From NCBI GenBank assembly GCA_016169945.1, contig JADLSH010000331.1, forward strand, positions 558,001 to 622,000: 64,000 nt of DNA, read 5' to 3'. Source of the stretch: Trachythela sp. YZ-2020. Its lineage: Eukaryota; Cnidaria; Anthozoa; Malacalcyonacea; Clavulariidae. The translations under genes and the position numbers were made by a program. This document shows, piece after piece, positions 17,512 to 58,599 of the stretch. The notes under the pieces were generated by a model. It worked only from the letters and a program-made list of their open reading frames with translations, had not been told where the DNA came from and searched no databases. Positions within the stretch are counted from its first letter, which is position 1. Each line of letters begins with the position of its first letter.

Positions 17512-18347
17512 CATTAATATTCAATTAATAATTAATTTTTGTAGTATATGATTGCTTTATATGATTGTGTGTACAATCTATTAATTGATTAACCATAAAT
17601 TTCGCCATGAATTCCCGTATACTCAAGATACAAATAGACGTAGAGTATGTTTATTGATATTGTTAAATTTGGTATCGGATCTAACATATCTACTCGCTCA
17701 AAAGTATTTTAATTTTAAATGCCCCCCAATAATTTGTGAAACAAATGACAAATTGATATTCGTTAATATTTCACTAACAATTATTTAATAAAAACACTTA
17801 CAAATTAATTTAATATGTGTCTTGCCTAACTTCAAAATATTTTTAGATAAAGGTACGCTTTCGATAAATTTCATCCCCTAATCCGAATTAAAATTAAAAG
17901 CTTTCTACGGCACTGATTGTTCTTTTCTATATGTCATACACACAGCCTATTTCGCCGTTCAACCACCTATTTCCAAGTCATAAAATGTGGCATATCGGTA
18001 AAGATATGGTATATACGGTTTTATTAGATTACCCAGTGGACTATGGTGTTTCTTGCACGGTCTACTTCAACGTATAACCTTGTGACAAGTTGTAGATTAA
18101 TACATTACATTAGGTTATACAGTGAAGTGAGTCTATTAATTGTTTGATGGTCTGTCTGCAGAAGACAAATAATTATCTGCCTCTCCAGGCTTGTATTCCT
18201 CACTATCGCTTTCCCCTGCATAATTTTCTCTACCTAGTAAATTGTCACTTCGTACGAACCCGTTTGATGCACAGCCTGTTTCTTCATTCCCTAGGAAGAA
18301 AAAAGTTGGTTTCGGTTTGTTTCAGATTTTTTCTGTAGTAAGCACCA
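17512..18347. other. Non-coding stretch, nothing recognised
   Basis: AT-rich, no element supported. Confidence 0.4.
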
Positions 18348-18587
18348 GGGGCCGGTTGTTCAAAAGACGGTTAAAGCTAACCCCGGGTTAAATTTTAATC
18401 TGCTGTTCTGGTTTGTATACTTCTTCATGTTTGTTTATTTCAAAACTTTATAAACAAAAACTTCTATCGCCCAGTACAAGGTTGACAGAAAAAAGTATTC
18501 ATATTAATATAAGCGATGTCGGGAAACTTGTATGAAAGTTAGCACTAATCCAGGGTTAAGTTAACCGGCTTTTGAACAACCGGCCCC
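18348..18587. mobile_element. 240-bp MITE with GGGGCCGGTTGTTCAAAAG ends
   Basis: The left end GGGGCCGGTTGTTCAAAAG with GGTTAAAGCTAACCC matches in inverse the right end ...GTTAACCGGCTTTTGAACAA + CCGGCCCC. There is no coding capacity. A related end fragment (AACCGGCCCCTGA) lies at 20177. The superfamily is not determined. Confidence 0.85.
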
Positions 18588-18869
18588 AGAAAAATAAGCG
18601 ACGGCCCTTACTATTGACTTCTAGTATGAAAAGTTTAGAAAGGGTAGAGTTATTCCGTATAAATAGAACTAGTTTAGTTTAGGTTAGGTTTCCACCTGTA
18701 AAAACACTGAACTAAGAAAGAATAGTTTAGAACTGAAAGGTATATCCAGCATAAATATAGACAGTTTCAATTTAGATGAGGGATACAGCATAAAAAATAG
18801 GTTCACGAAGGGCTAGCTCTAACCATACATAAATCAGCCAACAAGTCTGTTTCTGATACCACTATAATC

Positions 18870-19069
18870 TTAGACAGGGAACATAACGTTTTGATTTTTC
18901 TCACCTTCTCTCATCTCTTCAGCGACAGAAATGTTAAGATTGTTATAGCCACCATGTCCACCAGTTTCAGATTCCAAATCACTTCTTTCTAACTGCAGTC
19001 TTTCATTCTTTTCAACCATCCTTTGGTTAATACGAGAACCGACAGTTTCATAGGGTGAACTGCTGGAAT
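18870..19069 (-). CDS. aGPCR exon: distal tail and stop
   Basis: Acceptor TGTGTTTTCCAG. Encodes a serine-rich start ([16 protein letters not shown]), a glutamate/arginine-rich middle and ends NVMFPV-stop (TAA at 18872-18870). No AATAAA signal was identified nearby. Confidence 0.85.
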
Positions 19070-22000
19070 CTGGAAAACACATATAATATTCCTTGGTCTG
19101 TTTGAGTGTATGAATCTTTGCGCGAATAGGATTAACTTTTAATAGAAATACAAACTGGAAACCAGCGTTAAAACTTAAAACAATGTTTCCTCACTCTTTG
19201 GATTTTGAACAGATCTTTTGTTGCTGTTAAAGGTGGCTGAAAATGTGCTTCGTTTCATTGTGCTCTTGCGGACAACATCTCGCATCTACAAGACATGAAA
19301 CGTAGTACTATCACGCTTTTAACCTTCTGACGAAAGGGCTAATTCACTTGAAACGTTGAAATGCTTTTAATTTTTTTCAGGTATGTTCAGGTACAAAGCA
19401 ACGACTGATTAATTTGAAATAATACGTACACTGGATACCCACTTTTGAGATGCAGTAATTATGTTTACAGTACCTGTTTATTAAGGACACAATGGAATAG
19501 GAAAATGAGTATTCCTTGCGCGGAATTAAACAGGGCAAAAAGATACCGGAAAAACAAAGTTTCTCTGTTGAATGTCATCAAACCAAACACCCAAGTCAGT
19601 CCAAGAATTGGGAAGATTACTACAGCAGCCTTTACACCAGTTCTCACTTTACGAATATTACGCTGTTGTCGTACTCTATGAGAGCTCATCATTGTACGTA
19701 AGACCATGACAAACACGATAGTGTTGATCTAAAAGATGAAAGGAAGGAATGCAGTCAAGGAAGATCGTTATTGCGATAACTATGTATATATTGAATAGCT
19801 GTCCAAATAGGCGCAGTAAGGGCCATCCTTGTTGGCCCAATTTTACTACCGGAGGAAAATTAAGCTTACTCTATTTGTAATGGAAAGCTCTATCTGTACT
19901 AAACTATTGTCGCAAGAAGTACAGCGAGTTCCATCCATTATTGGTCCAGTATACAAGAGAACACTGGAGAACCTGGAGAAAAATCGAGGTGTTTGGTAGA
20001 GTCAAACTCGAAACACTCTTCTCACACCCGACTGAGGCGAAATTAAAGTCAAGGGTACTACAAAAGTCTTAAACACTTTTAGCTACCCGTTTTGAAGTTA
20101 AATTGTAGTTAATTCCAAAATATCCGATTGTGATTAGTTAACTTTCGCACTATAGTAAACTTTTACTGTTTTTTCCCAACCGGCCCCTGACGACTACATG
20201 CGGCTCAAATCGAACATCGGACACAGTGGTGAAAGGAACATTCACAAACCACTGTGACCCCAATACCCCACTATCAGTTCCAAACTGTTCTAAATAGCGG
20301 TATAAAGACCCGACTGTTGCTTGACCACAGTCTGCTGCAGTGAAACCTTCCTATTGTCAGTGGTCGAAATAGCGACATGAAGACCTACCAGTATGACAAG
20401 GAATGCAGGTCCCACGAACGCCCAGATCAATTTATTTTCAACGCTAAGCCAACACGAAGATTCTGTGCCGTATCCATCACCTTGGGTTGCTCCAAGTGAT
20501 ACAACAACAATAAATAAAGGAATGCCTGTGGTGGATATGAATATATGTCTTATGAGTGGTAAGAAACTATTTTTTTCTTGCGCTTGTGGAAAATTGGGTA
20601 TTTTTAGCCATTTACGCAGGAATTCCGGAAATTTTCGAATAGAACGTAAGGAACATGGTTTACTCCAACCTATTTTTACGGTTGAAACGTTTCATACCGT
20701 AAATTGCTGTTTGTTCCAGACATGTTTTCGCTCGCTACCTTGGTTTTAAGTAAATTAAGGCAAAGGTTGAATGGCATTCACGACTCAAAGTTTCGACATT
20801 CCGGTCTGGTGTCTTCATCAGGGCTGATGTAAAAATGCACCGCAGCACCTTATATACTCAAAGGATGACGTCATCGACCAATCAGGTGGAGATACTCCTG
20901 CGGCAGATACCTACCGTCATCTCTATTCAAAGCATGGGTATCCATGTTTATATACTGCGCTTTTAGGCAACATCTTTTCCCAAAGCGAAGATTAGCGTTG
21001 AAGGACGTTGCCCGCCATGGCCAGAAATATGAGACACCACGCTTTGTCAATATGCGCACAATGTGCCAAATGAAGAAAATCAAGAAGGCGGAATATACAG
21101 AAATATATAGAAATATTTGATAATGTTATGCGCAGAAAACAACAAGGTCCTTCAACTTCAATACTCAACACCAATCTCAACGCGAAATTATTTGCCATTG
21201 TTCTGGAAAAAGAGAATTCTTCTCGAAGCATTTTCTCCAATCTTTTCCTTATTCTAATGTGTCTGGAGCTCAAATATTCATCAATTTAGCCAAACCGTGC
21301 ACCTTTCAAGTGAATCTGGACACGCGCCTTTGTTGTACGATGCTTGATTTTATGTATATGTCATTTCCAACTGCGATCAAAATGTTCTGTTTGTTTTGTT
21401 GTAGCAGTTTATGTGCAGTTTATAGTTGTTAAAAATAGTGAAAGTAATTCTATCTATTGCATTCAAAGAAATATATTTAAAGTTCTAATCCTCTTAAGTA
21501 CACATTAAGGATTTATATACGGGGACCTTATACGAGCTAGATGGGCATTTGACTGTATAGTGGCAATGGCCCCACGCCGTGGGGAATTAAAAATATTTTT
21601 TTTTCGAAAAGTCAAATTCCAGGGGTTCGCCCGGGGGGATGACCGCAGTTGAAATTGACTCATACATTATTAACAGGGTTAATGTGGGTTTATTAAAGTG
21701 TTTCATCCGTTCTGCGAAATGAACTTTATATTGCCCTTTTTTAAGTTTCACATCATCAAAAATCCTCTGTCCGCCATTTTGAAAATATACCTGAAATATT
21801 ACATGTAATCAAGACTAACATCTCGGCTTGAGTTTTCCGGGTGAAATTGGGCGGGATAAATGCAACGAGTCTTGGCCTCAAAGGTATTAGACAGTAAAAA
21901 ATTACTATGGCTAGTCTTTTTGGCACTGATAGGTTAATACTTAATAACCTTTTCATACAGAACTATAATTGTTGAATATGTTTTCATTCTTGACACCTTT

Positions 22001-25000
22001 AGCAATCCTCAATGTCGGTATTTCTGTATCACATTTAGAATATATTGTACTGCTTGTCCATCCATCTCTTTAAGCCCTTCAACATATCCTCCAGTTTCCT
22101 GTTTTGGCAACAATTCGTTTAACAATATTTTACTTTAATATTGCCGAATTATATTTCTATATACAATGTATGTTGTAAAGATAACAAGACTCTAACATGT
22201 TGGTAATGCATGTTACTGGACTCGCGAGACGCCGCGCTGACTGTCTCAAATTTCTGGCCATACTAGAAGCGTTGCATATAAACATGAATCATCATGCTTA
22301 GAGTAGCGAGCGAAAAATGCTTGAAATTGATTACACTTGGTTGCCGTGAACGAAGAAATTAAAAACCGTGTTCCTTTTACATCTCTCCATGTTTGCTTAC
22401 CAGTCTCAAACAGCATTTTTCATTTTTTTTATAGGAATTCCGTTGTCCGGTGTAGTTTTGAATAAATGGATGGACATATTACAAACGTTATTTTCATTCG
22501 AAATTTTGTCAAGCACTATATGAAGTGACCATAGTGTTACAGTGGTGGTCAGCTGGTGGATAGCAATGCTATCATAACATTATATGTACTTGTCATGTAT
22601 TTGGGGGCAAATTAATAGAATTGAGAGAGCTTGATCTGCTTTATCAAATAAAAGTGAGAAGTTCCTAATTAACACCATATGCTGCTCCCTAACCCCATAC
22701 ATAACGAAATATAGCGCGATGTCGATTAGTCACTACCTCCTAAAATACACTGTAAGCACTCGTCCATCATCGTAAAGGTAAATCACTTACCCCAGCCAAT
22801 AAAATTGAATATTTTCCAGTGCTTTCCACCTACACTATCAAATATTCGTATTAGTAAGATGTACAGTAATATCCCCTCACACAACATCCATCCGAACGCT
22901 GATAGCACAAAGAAATGCAAGAGAGCAGCTACAGCTTTACAGAAATTCTGTTGAAAAGGTAAGAATACATCAGGAAATATTTATATTGAAAAGTTAACAA
23001 TATTAAGTTATACCTCTGTTGATTAACTATTTGACTTAGCCAGAAAAATACATAGGCCTATCTGTTTTAAACTGTTCTGCCTTGGTCTATAGGTCAAAAA
23101 AGAGCCATCTCTCGTTGGCTTACATTTACCACAGAAGGAAACCGAATTACGCAGATAATATCTGCTCTGCTTGGCATAGTGAAGCTATAAGCATTTTTCT
23201 CACAAACAAATTAGAAGAAATTGTAATCAGACAAATCCGTACAGTGGGAATCGAACCTCGACCACAGAAAGGTGAACACTCCGCTTAAGATTTTAAGAAG
23301 AGACTTACTGGACTATCTCTCGCAACACCTTCAAGTATAGAAAATATGTCAGTGAATCCAATGGCAACACACAAACTGAGCAGTACTTTGGCGCGAGGTG
23401 ATTTAACTTGCTTCCAGAAACAAACTTGCAAGAGAATTGTGAGCGCGATGCCGAGCAACGATATTGAACACCCAATAGTGGAAATCATTTCCAATATTTT
23501 ACGCTCTGACTCTGTCAACTGAAAGAGATAAAGCAGATTATTATATAAAAAGCCGCTTCACGTGACTTCTTAAAATCCCAAATATCACTATTTGTCTCCC
23601 TTTAGTCCAATCTCCTGCTACCAAAATAAATGTTATCCCTGATGACAAATGGTAGCCTCAGAAATGTTAATGTTTGTTTCCATTCCAAACGTACAGTAAC
23701 GAAAGGTGGAGCAACCTCTCGCACAAATATAGTTCGCAAGATTTTTTCAACGTAATCCATTTCCAGCAGATAATTGAAGAAAATATAAATTAAAACAAAA
23801 ATCCAAATATTATACTTCAAGATGCATTGTTTGTACATTGTTATATTTTATGTTTTTTTTAACACGAAGTGTTGGCACTGAACGTATGGAGATATGGGAG
23901 GGTATCTGACATATTCCACACGAGTACAAGCTGCAGCGAGAATCAAACCCGCGATGTTAGAAGGGAGGAGGTGTAAGGTGTTCGTTCTAACGAGCACAGC
24001 GGCAAAGAGGATCGAGGACCAGAAGTTGTGTATCTGAGCGACACTGCAGCAATATCGTCAGTACTGATACATTATAATGCTTTTTCGTTGACAATGGCGT
24101 GACTCGTGCAGAGCCTTTAGAATTACATTTGTGTGTTAGAAATAGGTTTACACTGCCACACACTTTTAACAAAGCATATGCTTCGATCGAAGAATGTTTG
24201 TCTAAACCACCACGAAGTGATATCCAACCTACCTCAACCTCAGCAACATCCATCATGACAGCAAACGCAGTGTTATGATCACAATCACACGTCACGTTTT
24301 CTTCATTCGATTCAGCTTCGTTCGGCATACATCCTTGACTACTCCATCTACTGTTATCAATGTCAGGCTCAATAAACACGCACGTTCGTCTTGGGTCCTC
24401 ATAACCAGTCTAAGAAAAGTGGATTCTATGCTAAGTTATATATTTTAGTTGCAGTGTTATTGGTTAGTGGCACACTGGGAGTTCTGGTAACACAACGGTT
24501 AGTACATACGTACATGTCCCTTTCATTTTGCAACCGCTGTTCGATGGCTGCAGTCCGCATTTGTCTGATTATATTTTCGCCTTAGTCATATGTGAGAACA
24601 GTTCTTCCAGCTGTACTCGACAAAAAGCTACAGATGTTCTCCGCCTGTTCCCTTTTCCTTCTGTACTAACACTGGACAACCAGGGAATGGCTCCTACTGC
24701 ATGGACGTGTATGGAGAACTGATAAACGATCCAGTACAAATAATAAATGTAGTTTAGTTTCCTCCTGCATGAATGCATGTACTAACAATGATAAGAAATG
24801 AATGCCCTTTAATGTACCTCTTGTGAAGAAAGCGTAGAACTCAGGGAGCTACCCAGTATAAATACAATTAGTTTGGGTTCCCCTTGTAGTAACAATGGAT
24901 TATTAAAATGGACCTGTAGGAATGACCGTTAAATACTAGGATGGACTCTCAGTATGTACCTGGTTATTCTGTATTATAATCTTAAAAGGCTGAGCCACTG

Positions 25001-46000: not shown

Positions 46001-49000
46001 AGACTGGTCACGCTGTACTGAAAATCTTGTATAGAGGCATGTAAAAATTAGTTAAAGAGAAGAAGGAAATATATGTATGTATTTCAGAATCCCCGTACGC
46101 GTTTCGTCCCTCATGGACTCATCAGCGGGGATCAGGGTTGGCACATGTTTGAGAAAGATATAAGAGAGAATTTTGAAGGCAAACAAGGATAAACAAAAAT
46201 AATATATGTACAATATAAAAGTTGTAGTGTCATACCAAACTCGTTGTAGTTCTTGTGTAGACCGATGCGGCGGGCCATTGTTGAGAATTGTAGATGTAAT
46301 TGTTGATTTGCTGTAGAAGTGTATAGTTGTTTGTCCTCTGATTAGCTGTAGTAGAAGGGCCGAAGATGGTTTGTGCAGTTGTATAAATTGCGTGTGTTTG
46401 GTCATGCGCAGCAGATTGGTTGTAATGTTGTAATATGGATAATTAGAGTAAACAAGGGGTAGGGGTTTGTACGTATAGTGATGTACTGTATTATACTTCA
46501 TGCAGTATGCGTAATTAGGTGTGGTAATGTTTGTATGATTAATTTGATGAATATTGAAAGGGTTCTTCCTACGTTATGTGGTGTGGAATTATATTAAACA
46601 AATTGCAAAAAATGTCATCTATAAATCTTATCCATTCAATTGGTATAAGACCATCTGGAGCTTTTTGAAAGAGCTTCCGTTCGAGCATTGCTATAATTAT
46701 GTTGGCTGATTGTTCTAATTCAGGAGTTATAGTGTTATTTTCGATAATGATTTGGGTTATTCAATTGTCTATATGTCTCAGACAGATAAGCATTATTGGG
46801 TCAGATTACAATAGCTTCCCCCTTTTTTTAAATTATCTGCTGCTTTGACTATTAAATCATTATCAGTCTTAAGTTTATGGATGGACTGTAGTAGTTCATG
46901 TATGGAAATGTTTCATGTTGAATTAAGGCTGTTTGTATTGAGAAACTACAGTGGGTAGTTATTATTGTGGACTTTGGGTTTAATAGGGCACAACATGGGT
47001 TCTGCTGTTAAATGTAGTTAGCCTTCACAATATGTACGTATAATTATAGGAATAAGAACCACACTGGCTTTATATCCATATAAAATCAATAACTGAAGTA
47101 TCAGTCCTGTGAAGGTTTTAAGGTCAGGTCAATGGGGATAGTATGATAAAAAATAGATAGTTCCTATTGTGGACTTTGGGTTTAGTGCACAGCATGGGTT
47201 CTGCAGTTACATGTAACCTTCACATTATGGCGAGCTTGGATGCGCTCTCTCCGTTCCCTATGGAATATTCACAGATTTTTAAGTTTAGATATAGGTAATG
47301 AGAACCATAATGGTGGTATATAATTTATAATTGTAACAACAGTCCCTAGGTAAGCTGCGAAGTTGATAAAATAAGTGTGAAATATGATCGTGTATTGACC
47401 ATGTGTAGGTAGCAAGACAATGTTTTTATTGTTATATGAAATGTAAAAAAATATAAAAGTAAAATGTTTATATGAATGTAAACCTACAAACCTACTCGAT
47501 CCCTCCGCTCAGTTGCAAAGGAGCTCTTACTGGTGCCTTCTTCCAATTTTTTTTTACTATTTTAGCTACTTCTTGCTATTTGTAAAGCGCCTTGAACTTT
47601 AGGATATGTGCGCTATAGAAATTGAGGATATTATTATTATTACACTAAATAATCGAACCAGCGAACAAGGCGAGTTGCAAACGACTTATTTTCTCTTCAA
47701 ATTGTGCGGTTTACAACATCGCGCAATTTATCTGTTTACAGTTGAGGACATATTTAAAAGGTGATAGGTAAATAAGTAAGAAAGTATAACAATTCATGTG
47801 CGCGATATCTGGCTATGGGAGGGAAGGACCGAGTGCGGCTCTCTTCAGGGAGACTAGATTTAACGGCAGACCACCAGTCTGAAACGATGCCATAAAAAGC
47901 AACGTATTTCACGAAATAATATTAAATAAACCTACTTTGCAATACAATAATAATCGCCAGAGTCTGATTTCGCAGTTTTACGAACAAATAGTTGAGATAC
48001 TTGATCGTTATTTTCAATCTTTACTCTGGATGATAACGATAAAACCATGCTATGATTTCTCCATTCAAAGTTCGGTAGAAATGGACCGCTAACGGTACAT
48101 TTTATTTCCAACATATCCCCAGCATATCCGCTGTATTTTATTGCCATTTGAATGTAAATAAAAGCTGAAAACAAAAGATTAATATGAGATCGAATTGTAA
48201 ACATTACTTCGGTCATGATAAAAACGCGGATACAATGCTTCCAGGTACGTTAGGTAAGAAAAACCTGGAAAGTAGAGTTGGCTTTCAGTAGGTATTGTCG
48301 CACATCAGATTTTGATTTGGTGCCAAATATATAAAACTTTATTGACTGTACTGTAGTTTAATCATGTGAAAGTCATTATAAGTCATGTGAAACGTCGGAA
48401 GTTGACCACTAGAGATAATTGGTATATATAGCTGTATATTAACAAGAGTAACAGGGTTTATCTAAACCTATCTGCATGTATTATCCCATGTTACCCAATA
48501 TTCTCAAATTACCTGGTATATCCGTGGTAATAATTAATGAATAGGGCACAACTGAAATGTTACCAATGGTTCCAGTTGCATTAATGCCGTCCAAAACTGT
48601 AATAATTTCATCTGTATAACCCGATACCACGACGATTTCTGCATCGCAAATGACACTTCCACGTCTGAAGTTACAGTATATACAACGATATATTTGTAAT
48701 AAATTGGTTATAAATTTGAGATAAATATATACCAAATATGGCTCAGCAACTTAAGTGTTTAGTATGTAAATTATTCGTTTTTTCCTCGTTTATATTGTTA
48801 TGTTAATCAAAACCCAGCTGTTATATATATTTATAAAACCATCTTATTTGGTATTTGAGCCCTTTCAAAGTATTTTTATCACGAAATTCGGTTTGTTTTT
48901 GTTTTGCTCCGATATGTTTTCGAGACTCTTCGCCAGCATTGCTTTTGCAGACGTGTTAACCGGCCGTTGAGAAAAGGGCTGAATTTTGTCCTATAGCCTT

Positions 49001-52000
49001 TAAGCATGGATAAGTTATTGGTTTCGTTTAGCATATTATGCTGATTGAGTTTACCGCCAAGCCGTGAGCCATTAAGAAGTTGACATACGTGAAACAAAAC
49101 GGTTTTTATTTATTTATTTTACATTTATTATGTACAAATCAAACGTCGTGGCCTTCGACATGGCGCCCATTTCGCTGAACAGAAAGCAATGTTCGCCTAT
49201 GCATAACGCGTACTGCCCGGCTAATGGTGGCAGGCTGCTTATGCGCATATGATATGAAATAATATTTTAATTTCTAAAAGTCTGCTTTTAATATACGCAC
49301 CCTGCCAATATTCAACGCGTCAGTGGGCAAGGTAGCGCTCTACCATTCAAATTATAAAAATGGGACCGATTTCTAAAGGTCTCCTTTTTTTATACACCCT
49401 GTATACAAGAGTGACGATATGCTAGCAATCACCTCCCCTTGGACAGGTACACAGTACTGCCTAGAAGTAACTTAACACAAATACGCGGTTAACCGCGGGC
49501 AGCACGCGGTTTGACCGCGGTCTGCCCGGAGGCCGACCACGGTCTGCCCGGAGGTTGCCCGCGGTTTCCCCGGGGGCTGCTCGCGGGCCGCCCGCGGTTG
49601 TGTGGGACTGTTGAGGTTTGACCGTAACTCACGGCGGAACACGAAAACAGTACGACTTGCGAACTCGGAATTTTACGTGGACAAATTAGTATTTAGAAAT
49701 CAGAATATCACACGATATAATTTGGCAGCCGTAATTTCCAACTTTGTCATTGGCATTACAATTTCATGTATATTGCAACCAGCCTAAACATTTAGTGGTC
49801 GTATTTGTTTATAAAGCTTAATAGTGTGTTTTGACGAAGCAAGTCTTTTAACGTAGCTAACGTATTGCACAATTTTACCGCACAAAGTGCTTATTGAACG
49901 TAAACACAAAAATTCAAAGCAAATCTCCCAATAACTAGTGTGTAAATTTGGTAAATTTTTTTCTGGAATGCTGTCTCGGTCAATAGAATACTGTTCGGCA
50001 AAGTTCTGATATAGACGAACATGCAAAAGTAATGCAGCTTGTTTCACAATGCAATGTAAGCTGACTCTTGAAGCAATAATTCTTGCAATATTGACATATA
50101 CCTGTTATGTAGACAGGCAATTAAAATATTTGTTAATAGACTGACAGACAATATTATGTTTGTTTGAGTGAGCAAGCGTAGTAGCGGCGCATATAAATAT
50201 ATATATGATTGAGTACGTATTTCTCCGCCGTTTACTGTAATTTGTATAGCTTGAAAATGCGAGGTAGATACTGTATATAGTATTGCAGATGATGACATAT
50301 GGTAGTTCAATAAACACTGCTAAGAATGGCTGCCGCACGTAATACAAATACGGAAGTTGTTATTCGGGTTAGCGTATACGTAGCGTAAGGATATATAATT
50401 GTGAGTATTGTCTATCTCCATATGATATGTTCTATATATCGTTGCGAGTTACAGTTCAGAGTAATCGACGATAATATATATGGCAAATATTCATACCTCT
50501 AGATTTGCTTTAACTATTGAAGCGAGGATGTCATATACAATAACACATATCTTTTCCGGAGGCTAGTCCCCAATGGGAAAAACTCGTTGAAGAAATTGTG
50601 GTCCCCAATGAAGAGATATTCAATCCATAAATCTCTCAGTGATATACTGATGAGTTCAGAATAAATACAAACTTAAAGCTTTCTATTCACCGGCGTTGCC
50701 CGGCGCGCTAATGAGTATTTTGGTATTTCCGGGACGTGGGATGAGAACTTGTAAACAATATGCAGATTACGAAACGAAAATTTGTCCGTATACTTGAAAG
50801 AAGATGCACGGTGTATTTTTCAACGGGATTTGCTAGCAAAATCAAAGCAAACATTGTGCGGGAAAGCTTTATATAAGCGAAGTGAGAGATCTGAGATTGG
50901 GACCCGAGTTTGATACAGGCTTTTCTTAATACAAGAAAGATTATTGATGGATTTGATACACATTGGACACACTAGAGTAAGTAAATAGAAATATTTATAT
51001 ATTTGACTACCATAACAATGTGCGAGGTCAAATAATCTTAGCTAAATCCATTATTTAACTATTAAAGCTTAACTTGACTTAAATTATCAAAAGTTTAATT
51101 GCTTTTTTACAACTCCTTTATACGTACAGTAGAGTAAGAAAATTAGGTCTGACTTGTTTGACTGTAATGTTTGAGCTGTCTCATCCTACGATTCTTTATT
51201 ATCGTATGTTTATAACTTTTGGAGTTTTGTGCCGTATAAGCCCAGCTCTCTGTTACATATACACGTAACTACAATACATGGAAAGATGCGACAAAATCTG
51301 ACTTGCAAACGTAAAGGTATGCGCTTACAATAATAATTAAAGATTTTTTTATAAATTAATGCGTTGGTGACTTCGAAATTTGCAGCATGCTATATAAACC
51401 CTTTTCTATAGGCTTTTAAACTGATACGCGTATGACAAAAAGTTACTAGGTTTATTTACGCATGTAAAAATCTCACATCTTGTTCACAAGTTGTTGGCTT
51501 AACAAGCTCGTACTACAGCAAGCCTGTCGACAACGTGTAACAAGCTTGTCATTTTATCAAACGTTGCGTCATATTTTATAGCAAAGTAGAATTAATATAG
51601 TAGAGCGATTGAATAGATTTATAAAAGTGTCGCTTATCACATTACGGTTTCTTGTTTACTAACACGCAAATATCATGCGGCAAACCCGTAGGGTTTGTAT
51701 TGGTGACACGTTTGTTGATCTGAGTTTATACTTTGCCTTAACACCTCATTCTCTTTATATTCATAATATAAATTCATATCAGTTGTGTATGTTACAGTAT
51801 ACAGTTTATTAGAGAAAATAGTAATTTAGTAAACAAATTAATCCATATAGGAACAAGTCCGTTTGCCGCATAATAACAGTTGTATCGGAAACCGTCGGAA
51901 CACGACGCAGTGGTTTTTCTGTTTGATGTGTGATTACGCACGAACCGCAACCGCAAACCGCACGCACGGCACCCGCTAACCGCACGCACGCACCCGCTAA

Positions 52001-53607
52001 CCGCACGTAAAGCACCCGCTAACCGCACGCACCGCACCCGCTAACCGCACGAACCGAAACCGAACCGCAGTGTTAACTTACTTCTAAGCAGTACTGTAAT
52101 TGTCAATTAGTAAGAATTTTCAAGTGGCTATTGCTTTTTTCGCAATCAGAATTGTCGAAATTGAGTTTCCAAAAAGTGTCAACCCTTAGCTTCAGCTATG
52201 GGTTGACTTTTTTTCAAAATGGGTTCTTCTCGAGCTGCTAAATCTAAAACAAAATCGGTTTTTCTGACCATTATTCAAAGATTTAAATCGAAAAAAGAAT
52301 GCCGCTATATTCTATTATTAATATTTTTATGGTAAGCGATAATCAAATATACAATCGCCCCCCCCCCCTCCCCCCCCACAAGGCAGCGTATTTTCGCAGT
52401 CGAAATGAACAATCATGTAAACTTTTCCATACGGCACAACCACGTTAGTGTTTAGTTTGTATACTATTCGTTTTATTTTCATGTATATTGCTATCATATT
52501 CATTAAAACCGAACGTGCGGTGCCAGTGTGGGTAGAGTGTAGCAAATATACGGCGGTTGACTGTTGTGTAAAACTAGCTGAAAATACAACAAGTACTTCG
52601 ACGTTTCGAGCGAAGGTCCTTCGCCTGGAAATTAGTAGAATGGATCGGGGAAAACATGTGCTTTTATAGTGAATACAAAAGCGATCACGTGATTAAAAAT
52701 AGACCAATCAGATTGATTTAATCAAAACAAACTATAAACAAAATATGGAAATAACATAAAATTTATTAGCATATAAGGAGAAGCGAACAAAGCAAGAAAG
52801 ACAGAAATTAAGGAACTATATATGAGAGGAGGTGAGATGTAGGATATCTGCTGATGGCAGGCATAAACAGATAAGAGTTAAATGTAAGAGAAGCGCTCAT
52901 TAATGCTGAGAGAATGAATGGTGCCACCATTCTTGACAAGTTTTGATGTTACTTATGTTGGACTTACTTCAGCTTGCATATAATTTTATTGTTGATTACA
53001 AGTCTATAGCCACTCTATAGACTTGTAATTACCTCGCCTTCGGCGACAAATTGTTCATTGGTCCAGGAAACCGGAATACTAGGAGATAATCTGCAGTTTT
53101 TGATAGAGTCAAACTTTATGCACTCTTCTCACATGCGACTGAGGAATCTATACAACCTCAGCCAATAGAGATGCACATGCGCTAATCGTTTTGCCAACAA
53201 CACGCCATAGAGCAAACATATTCAGTCACGCAGGGTTCTAAGAAAGGATATTTGAAAAAATTGATAATTATTACGTTGTAGGAAGTATTTAAACTTACCT
53301 GAATCGATAGATATTGGTGCGACGATATTGTGGAAATTTGGAAAATTCTGCATCAAACTTAAGAAATAAATTACAGTAATCAATGGTTAATTAAGAGTTG
53401 CAAGAATACACATGCGATACAAGCACTCTACAGCAGATCAAATTTGGTAGAGCAAAAAGAAAAGTATTGTGAATAATGTGAAACTTACATTATTGCTGAC
53501 ATTTTGAGAAAGTGTCTGAAAGCTATCGGAGTTTCGATCGTTTAATGAATCGGTAAATTCTCTATCCTTTAGTGTAAAGGTGGTGGCAAAAAATATGACT
53601 GGTGAGA
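18870..53607 (-). CDS. Adhesion GPCR, SEA-Ig-Ig-HormR-GAIN/GPS-7TM (17 exons, 5' end missing)
   Basis: A cell-surface receptor of the adhesion GPCR class, assembled from minus-strand exons. Coding segments (high to low): 53607-53489, 53357-53299, 48664-48513, 48164-47936, 41991-41897, 41609-41367, 38210-38109, 26539-26436, 25987-25757, 25513-24960, 24409-24233, 23518-23309, 22947-22791, 20525-20389, 19728-19474, 19285-19195, 19069-18870, about 3.1 kb in total. Codon phase agrees at all junctions except 25757/25513. The order is SEA, two Ig domains, a HormR domain, a GAIN domain ending in a GPS with the CDHNT cleavage site, seven helices with the class-typical CWLS and LGLTWVFG motifs, and a short tail. 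In the family the GAIN domain self-cleaves and the new N-terminus acts as tethered agonist. The layout resembles ADGRF-type receptors, but a HormR is added. Signal peptide and start codon were not found. Confidence 0.93.
19195..19285 (-). CDS. aGPCR exon: proximal cytoplasmic tail
   Basis: Acceptor TGTCTTGTAG, donor GTGAGG. Encodes [20 protein letters not shown] and NPK. If the donor were not used, translation would stop six codons later. Joining to the next exon keeps the frame, so splicing is likely; an alternative short tail is possible. Confidence 0.85.
19315..19370 (+). repeat. Hammerhead-like core motif, degraded
   Basis: CTGACGA followed by AAGGGCT...ACTT and GAAACGTTG reproduces the CUGANGA - stem - GAAA order of hammerhead ribozymes, but stems I and III cannot be formed. 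Probably a Penelope-type terminus relic in an intron. Confidence 0.35.
19474..19728 (-). CDS. aGPCR exon: TM5 end, TM6 and TM7
   Basis: Acceptor TCATCTTTTAG, donor GTACTG, 85 codons. The third intracellular loop is basic ([15 protein letters not shown]). TM6 carries [15 protein letters not shown], and TM7 is [18 protein letters not shown], both signatures of adhesion GPCRs. Confidence 0.96.
20389..20525 (-). CDS. aGPCR exon: TM4, extracellular loop 2, TM5 start
   Basis: Acceptor ATCCACCACAG, donor GTAGGT. Restores [14 protein letters not shown] with the previous exon; SSCWLS is the conserved loop-2 cysteine motif that pairs with TM3. Ends with [12 protein letters not shown]. Confidence 0.95.
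20765..20900 (-). repeat. Degraded hammerhead-like terminus of a dispersed element
   Basis: On the minus strand CTGATGA, then GACA...TGTC and GAAAC occur around 20782-20822. Next to it lie TTATATAC...GATGACGTCATCGACCAATCAGG, comparable to TTTATAG...GATCACGTGATTAAAAATAGACCAATCAG at 52660-52712. Stem I is not supported. Confidence 0.4.
20901..22790. other. Intron and repeat sequence without recognised gene
   Basis: Lies in the intron between the TM3 and TM4/5 exons. Around 21555-21660 a C/G-rich block with TCAAATTCCAGG and CGCCCGGGGGG resembles the fold-back family at 62.4-62.9 kb. Otherwise nothing was recognised. Confidence 0.4.
22791..22947 (-). CDS. aGPCR exon: TM3 and start of TM4
   Basis: Acceptor TTTCAACAG, donor GTAAGT, phase 0 in and phase 1 out. 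[15 protein letters not shown] contains the conserved TM3 cysteine, followed by [17 protein letters not shown], the W-M-x-x-E-G motif of family B2. Confidence 0.95.
23085..23290 (-). mobile_element. tRNA-derived SINE, copy 1
   Basis: The minus strand carries the pol III B-box GAGGTTCGATTCCCAC and then TTTGTCTGATTACAATTT and GTGAGAAAAATG, strings shared with the copies at 24.5, 26.6 and 42.1 kb. It lies in the intron after the TM1-2 exon. Confidence 0.65.
23309..23518 (-). CDS. aGPCR exon: TM1 and TM2
   Basis: Acceptor CTCTTTCAG, donor GTAAGT, 70 codons. TM1 is [22 protein letters not shown]2 is [17 protein letters not shown]. The intracellular link is basic (KQVKSPRAK). Confidence 0.95.
23885..24010 (-). 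mobile_element. tRNA-derived SINE, copy 2 (partial)
   Basis: Minus strand CGCTGTGCTCGTTAGAACG and B-box-like GCGGGTTTGATTCTCG, followed by CTTGTACTCGTG. Shorter and more diverged than the others. Confidence 0.5.
24233..24409 (-). CDS. aGPCR exon: GPS motif and tethered agonist
   Basis: Acceptor TTTTCTTAG, donor GTAGGT, 59 codons in phase 0. Contains [15 protein letters not shown] and [15 protein letters not shown]: the four cysteines, two tryptophan/glycine landmarks and the H-N-T site where autoproteolysis is expected between N and T. The new N-terminus TAFAVMMDV would be the tethered agonist. Confidence 0.95.
24490..24690 (+). mobile_element. tRNA-derived SINE, copy 3
   Basis: CAACGGTTAGTACATACGT (A-box region) and CTGTTCGATGGCTGCAG (decayed B-box), then TTTGTCTGATTATATTTTCG and CATATGTGAGAACAG. 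Lies in the 550-bp intron between the GAIN and GPS exons. Confidence 0.65.
24960..25513 (-). CDS. aGPCR exon: main part of the GAIN domain
   Basis: Donor GTACAT after IIIQNNQ, phase 0. The encoded 184 residues include [42 protein letters not shown] and a last strand before the GPS, in the order seen in GAIN subdomain B. The upstream border is uncertain: an in-frame TGA lies at 25517-25515, and the only nearby AG (25515-25514) would start the exon in the wrong phase. A dispersed repeat (CCTGATGAAG...GAAACG) sits about 50 bases upstream of it. Confidence 0.8.
25555..25615 (+). repeat. Hammerhead-like core motif next to the GAIN exon
   Basis: ACCC-CTGATGA-...-GAAAC-GTT-GGGT: the flanking ACCC/GGGT could pair as stem I, but stem II is poor and the stem III loop is absent. 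A degraded relative of the ribozyme at 46.1 kb. Confidence 0.4.
25757..25987 (-). CDS. aGPCR exon: GAIN domain, N-terminal helices
   Basis: Phase 0 at both ends: acceptor ACTTAACAG before GTCTTTAGA, donor GTAAGT after ...WKNIP. An acidic start ([11 protein letters not shown]) leads into helices with [14 protein letters not shown] and SSSNIVTG, as in GAIN subdomain A. Confidence 0.85.
26436..26539 (-). CDS. aGPCR exon: HormR domain, second half
   Basis: Acceptor TTTGATTTTCAG, donor GTAATG. Encodes [19 protein letters not shown] ending with SDC, the usual end of a HormR domain (R-x-C...W...S-x-C). A SINE begins only about 20 bases upstream of the splice acceptor. Confidence 0.9.
26562..26770 (+). 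mobile_element. tRNA-derived SINE, copy 4 (best preserved)
   Basis: GGCGTGAGTGGTTAGTATAT resembles the A-box half and GGTTCGATACC (26606-26616) is a perfect pol III B-box. The tail shares GCAGTTGT...GATTATAATTTC and CCTCAGTGGCATATGAGAA with the other copies. It begins about 20 bases from the acceptor of the HormR exon and is antisense to the receptor. Confidence 0.75.
26754..26797. repeat. Short palindrome
   Basis: AGTAACAATTAGACAACGA - GGC - CGAGTTGTCTAATTGTTACT: ~19-bp arms, one or two mismatches. Confidence 0.85.
26803..27670. repeat. Tandem repeat family R, copy 1
   Basis: Runs from CCCTCGCCATTACAACC through TTATTGTAACATGAAGTACT, GATGAACTACGCATTTTC, CGACTGATTTATTTTC, CCCGACTCCAG and AAAATGGCGGACGA to ACCCGGGTATAAATATGCG. 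The same landmarks recur in the same order at 33621-34600, and in two pieces at 27835-28041 and 33070-33495. No protein assigned. Confidence 0.85.
27835..28041. repeat. Family R, copy 2, left piece
   Basis: CCCTCGCCATTGGAACC ... TATTGTAACATGAAGTACTA ... TTTACCAATTGCCCGACTA matches copy 1 and copy 3, then stops abruptly at the CACAGTAAAG border of the large insert. Confidence 0.85.
28249..28570. repeat. 27-bp palindromic satellite, 12 copies
   Basis: Twelve units start every 27 bases from 28249 to 28546. Each begins with ACCAATTCTAAATTGGT, an inverted repeat, followed by a 10-base spacer: CATATCCGCA in the first units, CAAATCAATA in the later ones. As 27 is divisible by three, both strands read as open frames with a nine-residue periodicity; these are artefacts of the repeat and not genes. 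Looser ACCAATT palindromes extend the array to 28060 on the left. Confidence 0.96.
28680..29434. other. Interior of the insert, nothing recognised
   Basis: No coding frame or element beyond a few AT-rich stretches. Confidence 0.4.
29435..29531. repeat. Fold-back palindrome
   Basis: TATACAAACC ... CTTTATCAGATCTAAAACA - TCGAGGCGCAGCCGA - TGTTTTAGATCTGATAAAG ... GGTTTGTATA: long arms around a short GC-rich loop. Confidence 0.85.
29901..30170. mobile_element. 270-bp element with perfect 43-bp TIRs enclosing a tRNA-like sequence
   Basis: 29901-29943 (TACTGGGTTTGGTGGATAAT...) is the exact inverse of 30128-30170. TA lies at each border. Between them sits a tRNA-like cloverleaf on the minus strand. 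A second, nested inverted repeat (30108-30129 versus 30215-30236, GTGTGCGGGTTGTGATAAGG) straddles the right TIR. Confidence 0.85.
29990..30061 (-). tRNA. tRNA-like sequence (probable pseudogene or SINE head)
   Basis: The minus strand folds as acceptor GCCTCTG/CAGAGG, D arm GCTC-AGTTGGTTA-GAGC, anticodon arm CTGCA-CCGGAAT-CGCAG and T arm GTGGG-TTGAATT-CCAAC. The anticodon position reads GGA, but U33 is replaced by C, the anticodon stem has a closing mismatch and the T stem has another. The B box GGTTGAATTCC is near consensus. Probably not a functional tRNA. Confidence 0.6.
30733..31116 (-). pseudogene. Unassigned retroelement-like 3' end with TGAT microsatellite
   Basis: A 127-codon minus-strand frame runs into a (TGAT)n tract at 30846-30873, the same kind of simple repeat as behind LINE B at 6.63 kb. 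The protein ([28 protein letters not shown]) matches no family I can name. The simple-repeat tail suggests a LINE 3' end; weak. Confidence 0.3.
31915..32024 (+). other. Exon-like segment inside the large insert
   Basis: A pyrimidine-rich acceptor (TTACTTAAATTAACAG) precedes an open stretch encoding [20 protein letters not shown] and ending LTEEMRH-stop. Its composition looks coding. It might be the last exon of a transposase of the insert, but I do not recognise it. Confidence 0.3.
33070..33495. repeat. Family R, copy 2, right piece
   Basis: Resumes with TTCGACTGATTTATTTTC and continues through CCCGACTCCAGAG, AAAATGGCAGTTATTTTTCT, CATGGCGGACGAC and ACCCGGGTGTAAATATCCG, as in copies 1 and 3. 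Confidence 0.85.
33621..34600. repeat. Family R, copy 3
   Basis: Uninterrupted copy from CCCTCGCCATCAGAAAC to ACCCGGGCGTAAATATCCG and CGCGCCGGCTCGGG. Best template for the intact unit (~980 bp). Confidence 0.88.
34930..35215. repeat. Dispersed repeat family S, left part
   Basis: GAGCTGCTGAATTTAAAACA, AAGCGATTACAAATA and TAAGTGTTTAGTTTGTAA recur, diverged, at 52200-52470 and partly at 48750-48780. The family is split here by the TIR element at 35216; its right part continues at 36927. Confidence 0.7.
35216..36924. mobile_element. 1.7-kb DNA transposon with 44-bp TIRs
   Basis: Left TIR 35216-35259 begins GGACCGGTCATTATTAAAGG and ends GGGACCGAAGAGAAAA; the right TIR 36881-36924 is its inverse with about five changes. 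Flanks on both sides match the repeat family S, which occurs unsplit at 48750-48970, giving an approximate empty site. A target duplication could not be fixed (ATTTA left, ATTTTA right). The interior contains a possibly decayed coding stretch at 36040-36560. Confidence 0.8.
36040..36560 (+). pseudogene. Decayed coding-like stretch inside the TIR element
   Basis: Plus-strand pieces such as [37 protein letters not shown] and [19 protein letters not shown] look protein-like, with stops and frame changes between. It could be a transposase remnant; I cannot assign a family. Confidence 0.3.
36925..37260. repeat. Dispersed repeat family S, right part
   Basis: TATTGTTATGTTCAGCAAAA, TTTGTATTTGAGCC, GAGATGTTTTTGACACTC and GTTAACCGGCCGCTGAGAAA match 48797-48975 in order. 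Confidence 0.8.
37632..37875. repeat. Compound inverted repeats
   Basis: TTTAGTAAAATTACATAGG + TGATTATT (37636-37662) is inverted at about 37755-37783. Next to it GCTCGGTGAATATCGGTGAA ... TTCACCGATATTCACCTCGC (37799-37868) makes a second hairpin. CCTCGCCTTCGGCGA recurs at 53032. Confidence 0.8.
38109..38210 (-). CDS. aGPCR exon: HormR domain, first half
   Basis: 102 bp, acceptor CATTTTAG, donor GTTCGT. Encodes [20 protein letters not shown] ... KNCPDGKI, the C-x-W-x(n)-C-P pattern of the hormone-receptor (HRM) domain. The phase-1 end restores glycine with the next exon, which lies 11.6 kb away. Confidence 0.9.
   Translation of the reverse strand: MLTSFVLTTWKEVTLGIRPQLVHLLSKIVLMER
38729..38810. 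repeat. Perfect 39-bp inverted repeat with a 4-base loop
   Basis: TGCTCGTGCTTTGCCAATCA... (38729-38767) is the exact inverse of 38772-38810, loop TGGC. The right arm is coding for the Helitron-type fragment ([15 protein letters not shown], minus strand), so the left arm is an inverted copy of coding sequence that ends the frame. Confidence 0.97.
38756..39400 (-). pseudogene. Helitron-type protein: basic repeats and DUF6570-like region
   Basis: Two minus-strand frames. The first has repeats of the kind [20 protein letters not shown], typical of the charged repeats before the cysteine region of Helitron/Helentron proteins. The second has [20 protein letters not shown] ... [16 protein letters not shown], the C-x-x-C-x-E-x-W and T-x-I-E-E-x-L-I-A-R signature I associate with DUF6570. 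The sequence stops at the palindrome, so replication initiator and helicase domains are absent. Confidence 0.6.
39418..40345 (-). pseudogene. Helitron-associated cysteine-peptidase (deubiquitinase-like) region
   Basis: Starting after an acceptor-like TTTCAG at 40333, the frame reads [20 protein letters not shown] (GxQC is the nucleophile box). After a frameshift comes a proline/glutamate repeat region (five or six ~15-residue units of the type [15 protein letters not shown]). It ends with [35 protein letters not shown] and [11 protein letters not shown]. In relatives as I remember them the DS(H)xRD histidine is catalytic; here leucine stands in its place. Likely dead; the family assignment rests on motif memory only. 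Confidence 0.5.
40346..41366. other. Intron sequence, nothing recognised
   Basis: Part of the intron between the Ig2 and HormR exons; no element supported. Confidence 0.4.
41367..41609 (-). CDS. aGPCR exon: second Ig domain
   Basis: Acceptor CTTCTATTCAG, donor GTAAAA. Visible: [18 protein letters not shown] and [12 protein letters not shown], the cysteine-tryptophan-cysteine core. It ends in VTVHIISQ plus a phase-1 G that joins AT of the next exon to form aspartate. Confidence 0.93.
41897..41991 (-). CDS. aGPCR exon: Ig1/Ig2 connecting strand
   Basis: 95 bp, acceptor TTCATTTCAG, donor GTATGC. Encodes [20 protein letters not shown] followed by [10 protein letters not shown]: last strand of Ig1 and first strand of Ig2. 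Phase fits both neighbours. Confidence 0.88.
42060..42270 (+). mobile_element. tRNA-derived SINE, copy 5
   Basis: GCAATGGCTATTTCACGTGCC and the decayed B-box GGTCGGTTTTGATTGCTG, then GATATGCAGTTGTCGGATAA and GCCTCAGTTGTAAGAC, parallel to the copy at 26.6 kb. Within the Ig1/Ig2 intron. Confidence 0.6.
42606..42640. repeat. AAT microsatellite
   Basis: (AAT)n followed by TTATTATTATATTG; may be the tail of a vanished minus-strand LINE. Confidence 0.7.
43277..43760 (+). pseudogene. LINE D: endonuclease domain
   Basis: Plus-strand frame with [21 protein letters not shown] (GDFN box), [11 protein letters not shown] and, after a stop at 43621, [14 protein letters not shown] (SDH box). Only the second half of an APE-type endonuclease is present, so the insertion is 5'-truncated. 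This lies in the Ig1/Ig2 intron, antisense to the receptor. Confidence 0.88.
43790..45658 (+). pseudogene. LINE D: reverse transcriptase, L2/CR1-like
   Basis: A linker with [12 protein letters not shown] and [20 protein letters not shown] leads into the RT. There are frame changes near 44230 and 44555. The core frame 44700-45658 is intact and has [20 protein letters not shown] (first catalytic aspartate), [23 protein letters not shown] (catalytic DD), [14 protein letters not shown] and [20 protein letters not shown]. The protein breaks off after CPSYLSS where a Penelope-like element is inserted, and resumes at 47491. Confidence 0.93.
45659..45873 (-). repeat. Penelope-like element terminal direct repeat, copy A
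   Basis: Begins TTTTTAAGTTTAGATATAGG, ends GTAAACCTACAAA on the plus strand. Offset to copy B is 1617 bases. Confidence 0.95.
46087..46133 (-). ncRNA. Minimal type I hammerhead ribozyme
   Basis: Minus strand, 5' to 3': GAUCCCCG (stem I) - CUGAUGA - GUCC AUGAG GGAC (stem II, 4 bp) - GAAA - C GC G (one-pair stem III plus the A-U pair) - UA | - CGGGGAUUC (stem I). All conserved core bases are present; the cleavage triplet is GUA, with scission expected after A at 46096. Stem I has seven Watson-Crick pairs. Very short stem III hammerheads are known from Penelope-like elements and retrozymes; in them self-cleavage defines the RNA 5' end. Confidence 0.9.
46600..46900 (-). pseudogene. Penelope-type reverse transcriptase remnant
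   Basis: Minus-strand pieces in two frames: [13 protein letters not shown] (the K-x-D..I.IK-AD motif at the start of Penelope RTs), [20 protein letters not shown], then a jump to [18 protein letters not shown], where FIDDIF looks like the catalytic box. The fingers and palm between them are missing. Stops occur within. Confidence 0.65.
46955..47232. repeat. Direct repeat of ~75 bp inside the Penelope-like insert
   Basis: TATTGTGGACTTTGGGTTTA ... ATGGGTTCTGC ... CCTTCACA occurs at about 46963-47033 and 47165-47225 (spacing ~202). Confidence 0.8.
47276..47490 (-). repeat. Penelope-like element terminal direct repeat, copy B
   Basis: Same sequence as copy A; its last base abuts the resumed LINE D codon CCT (PTRSLRS). 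Confidence 0.95.
47491..47643 (+). pseudogene. LINE D: C-terminal end and 3' tail
   Basis: Reads [20 protein letters not shown], the usual end of L2/CR1 proteins after PSYLSS. The untranslated end AAAGCGCCTTGAACTTTAGG ... GCGCTATAGAAATTGAGG with an (ATT)n tail follows. This proves the insert at 45659-47490 split a single LINE. Confidence 0.9.
47936..48164 (-). CDS. aGPCR exon: first Ig domain
   Basis: Acceptor TTGTTTTCAG, donor GTAGGT. The Ig signature is complete: [10 protein letters not shown] (first cysteine), NFEWRNH (core tryptophan) and [10 protein letters not shown] (D-x-G-x-Y-x-C). The phase-2 end AA plus T of the next exon restores CIAN. Confidence 0.92.
48513..48664 (-). CDS. aGPCR exon: C-terminal half of SEA domain
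   Basis: Acceptor TAACTTCAG, donor GTAATT. Starts [16 protein letters not shown], the last strands of the SEA fold. No clear G|SVVV autoproteolysis site is seen: GSVIC is present instead. Ends in phase 1. Confidence 0.85.
48740..48985. repeat. Dispersed repeat family S, unsplit copy
   Basis: TAAGTGTTTAGTATGTAA, TATTGTTATGTTAATCAAAA, TGGTATTTGAGCC and GTTAACCGGCCGTTGAGAAA in order; equals the flanks of the TIR element at 35216-36924 without the insert. Confidence 0.75.
49475..49604. repeat. GC-rich cluster of GCGGT/CCGCGG units
   Basis: About ten CGCGGT, CCGCGG or GCCCG(G/C) units within 130 bases, bordered by CACAAATACGCGGTTAACCG at the left and CCGCGGTTGTGTGG at the right (inverted CACAA...AACCGCGG). 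It is strongly GC-rich in an AT-rich region. Confidence 0.8.
49605..51940. other. Intron sequence, nothing recognised
   Basis: Belongs to the 4.6-kb intron between two SEA exons. Several short frames exist without resemblance to known proteins. Confidence 0.4.
51945..52072. repeat. Minisatellite of CACCCGCTAACCGCACG units
   Basis: Four to five units of CACCCGCTAACCGCACGCAC (~20-24 bp) flanked by CGAACCGCAACCG repeats. The minus-strand frames over it (RLAGA, RAVSG) are repeat artefacts. Confidence 0.9.
52200..52470. repeat. Dispersed repeat family S, third copy, with C-tract
   Basis: CGAGCTGCTAAATCTAAAACA, AAGCGATAATCAAATA, GTTAGTGTTTAGTTTGTA and TCGTTTTATTTTCATG parallel 34985-35210. A C-run lies at 52357-52377. 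Confidence 0.65.
52505..52715 (-). repeat. Degraded Penelope-type terminus
   Basis: Minus strand GCGAAGGACCTTCGCTCGAA + ACGTCGAAG repeats the core at 10.74 kb. The adjoining TTTTATAG...CGATCACGTGATT...ACCAATCAG resembles 20.84-20.89 kb. No ribozyme fold is retained. Confidence 0.45.
52995..53029. repeat. 15-bp inverted repeat
   Basis: ATTACAAGTCTATAG - CCACT - CTATAGACTTGTAAT, followed by CCTCGCCTTCGGCGA as at 37.86 kb. Confidence 0.85.
53299..53357 (-). CDS. aGPCR exon: SEA domain, middle
   Basis: 59 bp, acceptor TTTCTTAAG, donor GTAAGT. Encodes [19 protein letters not shown]. Leaves in phase 2, completed by the first base of the next exon to give arginine, producing the RFRRGSV stretch typical of SEA domains. 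Confidence 0.82.
53489..53607 (-). CDS. aGPCR exon: first part of the SEA domain
   Basis: Acceptor TTATCTAG, donor GTAAGT. It encodes [19 protein letters not shown] and continues to QNVSNN: a strand followed by the alpha helix of a SEA domain. It enters in phase 1 and leaves in phase 0. This is the most upstream exon I can support; the phase-1 start shows an earlier exon exists. Confidence 0.8.
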
Positions 53608-55215: not shown

Positions 55216-55249
55216 CCTTGAACTTGGACGAAAGAAAGAACTTCTGACA

Positions 55250-58545: not shown

Positions 58546-58599
58546 CTACCAATCAATTAATCGTTTTTTAAAATATACATCTTGCAGTCAACATGACTG

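Follow-up and report, generated by a model that had tools for sequence, protein, structure and literature searches.

The families of adhesion GPCRs have been defined from vertebrate members, and how they arose is poorly resolved. ADGRA receptors carry leucine-rich repeats before their Ig and HormR domains, and a HormR is also found in ADGRF3. The HormR-GAIN-7TM core is older than animals, as far as the available text of one study goes (PMC12716839). ADGRF occurs in lamprey and is absent from lancelet and Ciona in the accessible part of one survey (PMC8584163), and is likewise not in amphioxus according to the available portion of another (PMC2246102). For ADGRF1/ADGRF5, the sections at hand of a further paper describe the SEA autoproteolysis motif GSVVV/GSIVA, with cleavage in the loop that links strands 2 and 3 (PMC6954182).

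The window analyzed here is a stretch of 64,000 nucleotides of Trachythela sp. YZ-2020 (contig JADLSH010000331.1, positions 558,001 to 622,000). It very likely contains a working octocoral adhesion GPCR gene, a member of an anthozoan receptor clade with the order SEA-Ig-Ig-HormR-GAIN/GPS-7TM, whose predicted product would cleave itself and signal through a tethered agonist. The features of the gene are listed below, with the evidence for each in parentheses; P0004 is the Paramuricea clavata relative used for alignment.

18136..53607, minus strand: adhesion GPCR gene, 18 coding exons within the window, 5′ end outside the model (exon joining, translation, P0004 alignment)
53489..53607, minus strand: exon 1 as modelled, N-terminal part of SEA; the phase 1 entry is an acceptor, without start codon (join, tblastn, P0004 alignment)
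53299..53357, minus strand: exon 2, 59 nt, central part of SEA, phase 0 to 2 (exon scan; 11 of 19 identities to P0004)
48513..48664, minus strand: exon 3, end of SEA with the G/SVIC motif, Gly at 48660-48658 and Ser at 48657-48655 (join and alignment)
48513..53607, minus strand: SEA cassette, exons 1-3, 330 nt, phase-1 introns at both borders (exon lengths and phases)
47936..48164, minus strand: exon 4, first Ig domain (I-set match of this frame in Pfam, 1.3e-10; tblastn)
41897..41991, minus strand: exon 5, last part of Ig 1 and first part of Ig 2 (tblastn)
41367..41609, minus strand: exon 6, second Ig domain (ig match of this frame in Pfam, 6.5e-8; tblastn)
38109..38210, minus strand: exon 7, first half of HormR (HRM on the joined model; tblastn with P0004)
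26436..26539, minus strand: exon 8, second half of HormR, past the 11.6-kb intron (HRM on the joined model; tblastn)
25757..25987, minus strand: exon 9, first part of GAIN (Pfam GAIN on the joined model, the exon alone being just below the cut-off; tblastn)
24960..25376, minus strand: exon 10, second part of GAIN (Pfam on the joined model; tblastn)
24233..24409, minus strand: exon 11, GPS with His at 24277-24275, Asn at 24274-24272 and Thr at 24271-24269, scissile bond Asn-Thr (Pfam GPS 2.9e-10)
23309..23518, minus strand: exon 12, TM1-TM2, including the Trp after TM1 (Pfam 7tm_2)
22791..22947, minus strand: exon 13, TM3 to the start of TM4 (Pfam on the joined model; tblastn)
20389..20525, minus strand: exon 14, TM4, ECL2 (longer, GATQ) and start of TM5 (sequence and 7TM alignment)
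19474..19728, minus strand: exon 15, end of TM5 to TM7 (Pfam 7tm_2 1.1e-12; tblastn)
19195..19285, minus strand: exon 16, cytoplasmic tail, 91 nt, the least supported exon (frame and splice sites; 14 identities to P0004, 27 of 30 residues aligned)
18905..19069, minus strand: exon 17 with corrected end, donor GTGAGA from 18904 on (alignment to relatives)
18136..18290, minus strand: exon 18, absent from the earlier model, end of the tail and stop codon (tblastn with P0004-P0007; in-frame join)

The first-pass annotation had joined 17 exons with consistent splice sites and phases into a SEA-Ig-Ig-HormR-GAIN/GPS-7TM receptor whose GPS cleavage residues and tethered agonist looked intact. Rebuilding these exons along the minus strand, from 53607-53489 to 19069-18870, gave GT-AG borders at 16 of 16 introns with compatible phases, and the join yielded 991 residues with zero internal stops. 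The chain of exons, the domain order (by Pfam search of the joined exons) and the GPS residues with their agonist were thus borne out, but both ends had to be revised. At the 3′ end, the relatives extend into 18290-18136; a donor (GAAG/GTGAGA) follows 18905 and an acceptor (TTCCTAG/GG) precedes 18290, both in phase 1. By these splice sites, the stop at 18870 is a read-through into the intron, and the true end of exon 17 is at 18905. The C-terminus of P0004 reads ..NNEEAHLTV; in the window NN is followed by TAA TAG and then by THFTV with a stop at the same place. In this stretch (18118-18138, minus strand) the two adjacent stops occupy the position of the Glu-Glu of P0004. The last seven residues, perhaps a tail of the PDZ type, seem to be a recent loss from the frame of the window.

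At the 5′ side, 53607 is a splice acceptor in phase 1, and the model has neither a start codon nor a signal peptide. Pfam finds EGF-like domains ahead of SEA in P0004 and P0008, and the window gene probably has such domains in front of its SEA as well. A pattern search for an EGF exon on the minus strand of 53607-64000 returned none, and permissive tblastn over the same interval (E up to 50, best 25 rows) gave no convincing match. Two candidates for a signal-peptide exon were seen upstream of 53607; the better one, at 57066-56982, was set aside because it lies antisense between retrotransposon-like ORFs at 56348-56647 and 57267-58299 (plus strand). On this side the gene probably continues beyond the border of the window. 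Immediately upstream of the first modelled exon, BEL/Pao-like ORFs extend over 54006-58600 on the plus strand, a tentative naming with DUF1759 as the sole match. Downstream of the gene, retrotransposon pieces with integrase, RVT_1 and RNase H matches, read as gypsy-like, lie at 13852-15445 on the minus strand.

The large introns of the gene measure 4.6, 5.9 and 11.6 kb. The intron that separates exons 4 and 5 contains a LINE-like reverse transcriptase ORF (44610-45662, plus strand, RVT_1 4.9e-22). Degenerate tandem repeats of 69 and 45 bp occupy 39063-39912 in the intron that follows exon 6, where the open frame at 39421-39903 (minus strand) has no Pfam match. The 11.6-kb HormR intron contains a 27-bp repeat in 12 copies (28245-28567) that is open on both strands, probably as spurious coding. 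SEA, Ig-Ig and HormR each begin after a phase-1 intron, and phase-1 introns flank the Ig cassette, which spans exons 4-6 with 567 nt. Since the SEA cassette is 330 nt long and flanked by phase-1 introns, it could be skipped without a frame shift. In the octocoral proteins P0006 and P0124, EGF and Ig are present and SEA has no Pfam match. From the frame-neutral cassette and these missing matches, the SEA module may be optional, being either skipped by alternative splicing or lost.

The joints were compared with relatives, all of them predicted proteins. A protein database search in which 7995 candidates were scored returned 143 proteins at E ≤ 1e-3, and the best 120 of the 143 were listed. When 14 of the 143 (P0004-P0017) were run against the window by tblastn, the matches fell exon by exon. 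P0004 alone matched 16 of the 18 exons, the short exons 2 and 16 having no separate match; by direct alignment all 18 exons aligned, with 734 identities over 1021 of 1031 residues (72% over the aligned model) and 219 of 252 residues identical in the four 7TM exons. P0004 spans every exon joint, that of the 11.6-kb intron included. The joint between 26.5 and 38.1 kb is supported at the protein level, because HormR runs unbroken across it in P0004, P0008, P0012 (Stylophora) and P0017 (Sinanodonta). A profile search for distant members (7995 candidates scored) gave 16 proteins at E ≤ 1e-20, bringing in rows from Xenia and Paramuricea along with Ig-rich proteins, obscurin among them; its reach was poor, since P0012 and P0017 were not listed. 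For both Paramuricea paralogs P0005 and P0006 a contig of 28386 bases is given, so these two may lie next to each other. The database names of several relatives are misleading (fibrillin-2, notch 1-like, BAI3).

On the joined model, Pfam found, from N to C, SEA (6e-11), ig in two stretches (1.7e-16), HRM (1.6e-6), GAIN (2e-9), GPS (6e-9) and 7tm_2 (1.1e-51). All six families scored above their curated cut-offs, and several exons matched on their own. The sequence features of class B2 were found: a 7tm_2 score of 176 against a cut-off of 20.6; GAIN and GPS directly ahead of TM1, with the HormR-GAIN fold seen in the P0004 model; and, by sequence, an H-X-S/T motif with a Stachel. In this model, which begins downstream of the 5′ end of the gene, Pfam found no LRR as in ADGRA, no lectin (RBL) or olfactomedin as in ADGRL, and no TSP_1 as in ADGRB, the last being without a match in P0004 too. 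Membership in ADGRB, which database names suggest, was provisionally rejected for want of TSP_1 in the model and P0004.

The order SEA-Ig-HormR-GAIN-GPS-7TM was also found in P0012 (Stylophora pistillata), in P0013 and in P0017 (the bivalve Sinanodonta woodiana). P0013 groups with stony corals in the tree, in the same clade as P0012. P0014 was discarded as a SEA-bearing protein, as Pfam finds no SEA there although a shortened SEA-like stretch is readable. Among the relatives the outer parts vary, with fn3 in P0012, F5/8C in P0015, a SUEL-lectin match below cut-off in P0011, EGF, and SEA present or absent. No description of the SEA-Ig-HormR-GAIN-GPS-7TM architecture was found in the literature searched, which excluded most subscription journals. 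The annotation had singled out the presence of all these domains in one protein outside vertebrates. They are indeed all present in the window, but the combination is, on the sequences compared, a variant and not unique to this gene, because SEA-HormR (ADGRG6, and also ADGRG4) and SEA-Ig (ADGRF5) are known and the full order is present in a stony coral and a bivalve.

The window directly shows the structure of the gene, its domains, the motifs for cleavage and an intact frame, and the same domain order was observed in other octocorals, a stony coral and a bivalve. The GPS residues are HNT, and the Stachel is TAFAVMMDV. A Phe stands exactly 33 residues ahead of the GPS His in the window protein; F803 and H836 of ADGRL1 have the same spacing, and in the available text of the report their pi-pi contact supports cleavage (PMC13062082). 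The motif is no proof of cleavage, because ADGRB2 has HLS and, in that same text, is uncleaved (PMC13062082). The scissile bond is preceded by Asn in the window and in seven of the eight near octocoral rows having GPS, by Thr in P0009 (HTT), and by Leu in P0012, P0013 and P0015-P0020, with HLT in the Dendronephthya CD97-like rows, the stony corals and the bivalve. The SEA motif is G/SVIC, and its GSV is invariant in five of five aligned sequences (octocorals, stony coral, bivalve). In a fold model of P0004, not of the window protein, and of moderate quality (pLDDT 71, pTM 0.52), GSV begins at residue 100, between predicted strands 89-98 and 101-110. Foldseek with this model gave HormR-GAIN of BAI3 and BAI2 first, and 7TM structures of ADGRD1 and ADGRL within the first ten.

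The receptor is thus likely, by its motifs, to have two self-cleaving modules in series, with adhesion domains outside and a tethered agonist inside. The ectodomain would bind a partner, either in the matrix or on an adjacent cell. While being synthesized, the chain would probably cut itself twice, in SEA at G/S (GSVIC) and in GAIN at HN/T, and the pieces would stay together non-covalently. A pull on the ectodomain could then open SEA and shed the outer domains, if the receptor senses force; a pull that opens GAIN would free the tethered agonist TAFAVMMDV..., which could fold into the 7TM and switch on G proteins.

The first-pass annotation had likened SEA with two Ig domains to ADGRF5 and HormR next to Ig to ADGRA/ADGRB, and had proposed that the gene could inform how the families split. 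The 7TM comparison points weakly to ADGRF and not to ADGRA/ADGRB. What is new, in the aligned sequences, is that the anthozoan clade shares a Trp after TM1 and a longer ECL2 with P0032, with the bivalve protein and with the ADGRF receptors of vertebrates. The Trp was found in 63 of 127 7TM rows (15 of the anthozoan clade, including the window, P0017, P0032, ADGRF1 and 45 ADGRF5) and in none of the other 64, which include ADGRD1, E1, E5, G1, G2, G5, L2 and L3. Every one of the 63 Trp rows has a TM4-ECL2 spacing of 21 or 22, and 59 of the 64 others have 20, the exceptions being G1, G2 and G5 (31-37), P0025 (23) and P0079 (21). Of the 45 ADGRF5 rows, 40 are named ADGRF5/GPR116; P0080, P0082, P0089, P0101 and P0109 are not named as such and have the same domain set. 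The signature was noticed in the alignment before counting, and its clean split is not an independent test because it was chosen after the alignment had been seen. P0032 itself has Pfam matches to 7tm_2, GPS and a weak Ig and a HormR-like stretch by eye; it groups with the bivalve protein at 97/90.

In the ML tree with E and G rows, ADGRF, the anthozoan clade, P0017 and P0032 grouped at 91/91 against G, E, L and D. Similar splits were obtained in smaller trees, at 91/88 and, with P0025 on the ADGRF side, at 88/85 and 88/91; P0025 shifted to ADGRG once G rows were added. When the two signature stretches were removed, the ADGRF grouping dissolved and the anthozoan clade stood alone. The idea that the gene could inform the family split is reasonable, with a fragile tree link to ADGRF that is lost without these stretches. 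The AU test kept the alternatives of ADGRF with ADGRG (p 0.448), L/E (0.27), D1 (0.139) and D2 (0.071), as well as anthozoans with P0017 and P0032 without ADGRF (0.464); it rejected ADGRF with the B3-like protein (0.031) and, in a smaller set, ADGRF with D2 (0.003). The ADGRF branch is very long (1.6), and in plain similarity ADGRF1 ranks under L, D, E, G6, G4 and G2. The first tree held 35 hand-picked proteins of the 120 listed, together with P0124, three PDB rows and the window; P0033 (short 7TM) and P0011 (broken 7TM) had been dropped. P0025, P0032 and P0035 were left out of the 91/88 tree, and P0009, P0010, P0023, P0024, P0035 and the PDB rows out of the 88/91 tree. For the 91/91 tree, the AU set and the signature-free tree, P0006, P0016, P0019, P0024 and P0055 were left out and six further PDB rows added. 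ADGRA, ADGRC, ADGRV, ADGRF2-4, G3, G4, G6, G7 and vertebrate ADGRB are absent from all trees.

In domain content, the window gene has SEA with a G/S motif and Ig domains, as ADGRF5 does; it differs in having HRM, for which three ADGRF5 proteins gave no match at E ≤ 0.01. The ADGRF3_N model also matches EGF stretches of the octocoral proteins P0019 and P0124, and by this measure ADGRF3_N may be EGF-like. We regard ADGRF kinship of the window gene as a lead, and a tentative one.

A join of exons from two adjacent genes over large introns is highly improbable. The 4.6-, 5.9- and 11.6-kb introns, the second with a retrotransposon ORF inside, would suit such an error, but SEA, Ig, HormR, GAIN and 7TM follow one another in just this order in independent predictions from Paramuricea, Stylophora and Sinanodonta, and on this ground the artefact was rejected. 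For a genuine receptor two histories were weighed. In one, an invertebrate HormR-GAIN-7TM core gained SEA and Ig cassettes, and ADGRF5 acquired its own separately, with no special 7TM link between them. The phase-1 starts of SEA, Ig-Ig and HormR and the cassette lengths of 330 and 567 nt suit shuffling, as do the differing outer parts of the relatives and the anthozoan clade that stands alone without the signature stretches. Against it, Stylophora P0012 and the bivalve P0017 have this order too and align over nearly their whole length (100% and 99% of the query), which argues for one old architecture at least there, and the Trp divides 63 rows from 64. We consider independent shuffling an evenly balanced prospect.

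In the other history, which places the gene at the stem of ADGRF, the cnidarian-bilaterian ancestor had an EGF-SEA-Ig-Ig-HormR-GAIN-7TM receptor that was kept in anthozoans and bivalves, and ADGRF5 lost its HormR while its 7TM changed fast. The partition of Trp (63 of 63 against 0 of 64) and of spacing (21-22 in 63 of 63 against 20 in 59 of 64), the 91/91 grouping with its similar splits in smaller sets, and the ADGRF3_N-SEA-Ig-Ig order of ADGRF5 speak for it. On the other side are a grouping that vanishes without the signature stretches, the alternatives kept by AU, the long ADGRF branch, the changing side of P0025, the poor similarity rank of ADGRF1, the lack of HRM in three ADGRF5 proteins, the post hoc choice of the signature, and the presence of ADGRF in lamprey but not lancelet or Ciona in the available part of the survey (PMC8584163). 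This common ADGRF root is possible, and we would sooner doubt it than assume it.

Under such a root, ADGRF would predate the cnidarian-bilaterian split and would have been lost in lancelet and Ciona, and the ancestral receptor would have had two self-cleaving domains in series; ADGRF5 would have kept its SEA-Ig part and lost HormR. A coral and bivalve receptor with SEA, Ig, HormR and a two-part 7TM signature is a concrete candidate for an older ADGRF root, and self-cleaving SEA and GAIN modules in a cnidarian would test the antiquity of two-step force-driven shedding. If the ADGRF link fails, the gene is a clean example of phase-1 cassettes round a HormR-GAIN-7TM core.

Compared with known systems, ADGRA/ADGRB have HormR-GAIN-7TM in common with the window, and BAI3 HormR-GAIN is the first fold match of the P0004 model; ADGRA also has Ig. 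Unlike these families, the window model has neither LRR nor thrombospondin repeats, and in the tree the B3-like P0021 clusters with the D2 and Hydra rows and apart from the window. P0004, in the database as 'Brain-specific angiogenesis inhibitor 3, partial' and considered together with P0005-P0009, has the domain order of the window; it differs in the EGF before SEA and in seven extra C-terminal residues (EEAHLTV). Its name suggests ADGRB, for which no support was found. ADGRG6/ADGRG4 have SEA followed by HormR-GAIN, as in the window, with CUB/PTX (ADGRG6) or pentraxin (ADGRG4) in front, and the available portions of both sources name no Ig between SEA and HormR (PMC6954182, PMC13197933). The 7TMs of ADGRG1/2/5 are separate from the window in the tree (100/99) and lack the Trp; those of G4 and G6 are absent from the tree.

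P0012 and P0013 share SEA-Ig-HormR-GAIN-GPS-7TM and the 7TM clade (99/100) with the window, and P0012 also the GSV motif, with an alignment covering 100% of the query. They differ in identity (31%), in a GPS of HLT rather than HNT, in one Ig between SEA and HormR (Pfam), and ahead of SEA, where P0012 has fn3 and P0013 has EGF, Ig and fn3. P0017 is from another phylum, has HLT at the GPS and falls outside the anthozoan 7TM clade, but resembles the window in SEA-Ig-HormR-GAIN-GPS-7TM (29% identity over 99% of the query), in GSV and in the 7TM signature. Vertebrate ADGRF5/GPR116 (Ig-Hepta) is 25-31% identical to the model and, unlike it, without an HRM match in three proteins. It has the order ADGRF3_N-SEA-Ig-Ig and, like the window gene, a Trp after TM1, a longer ECL2 and, in the available sections of the source, a G/S cleavage motif in SEA (PMC6954182).
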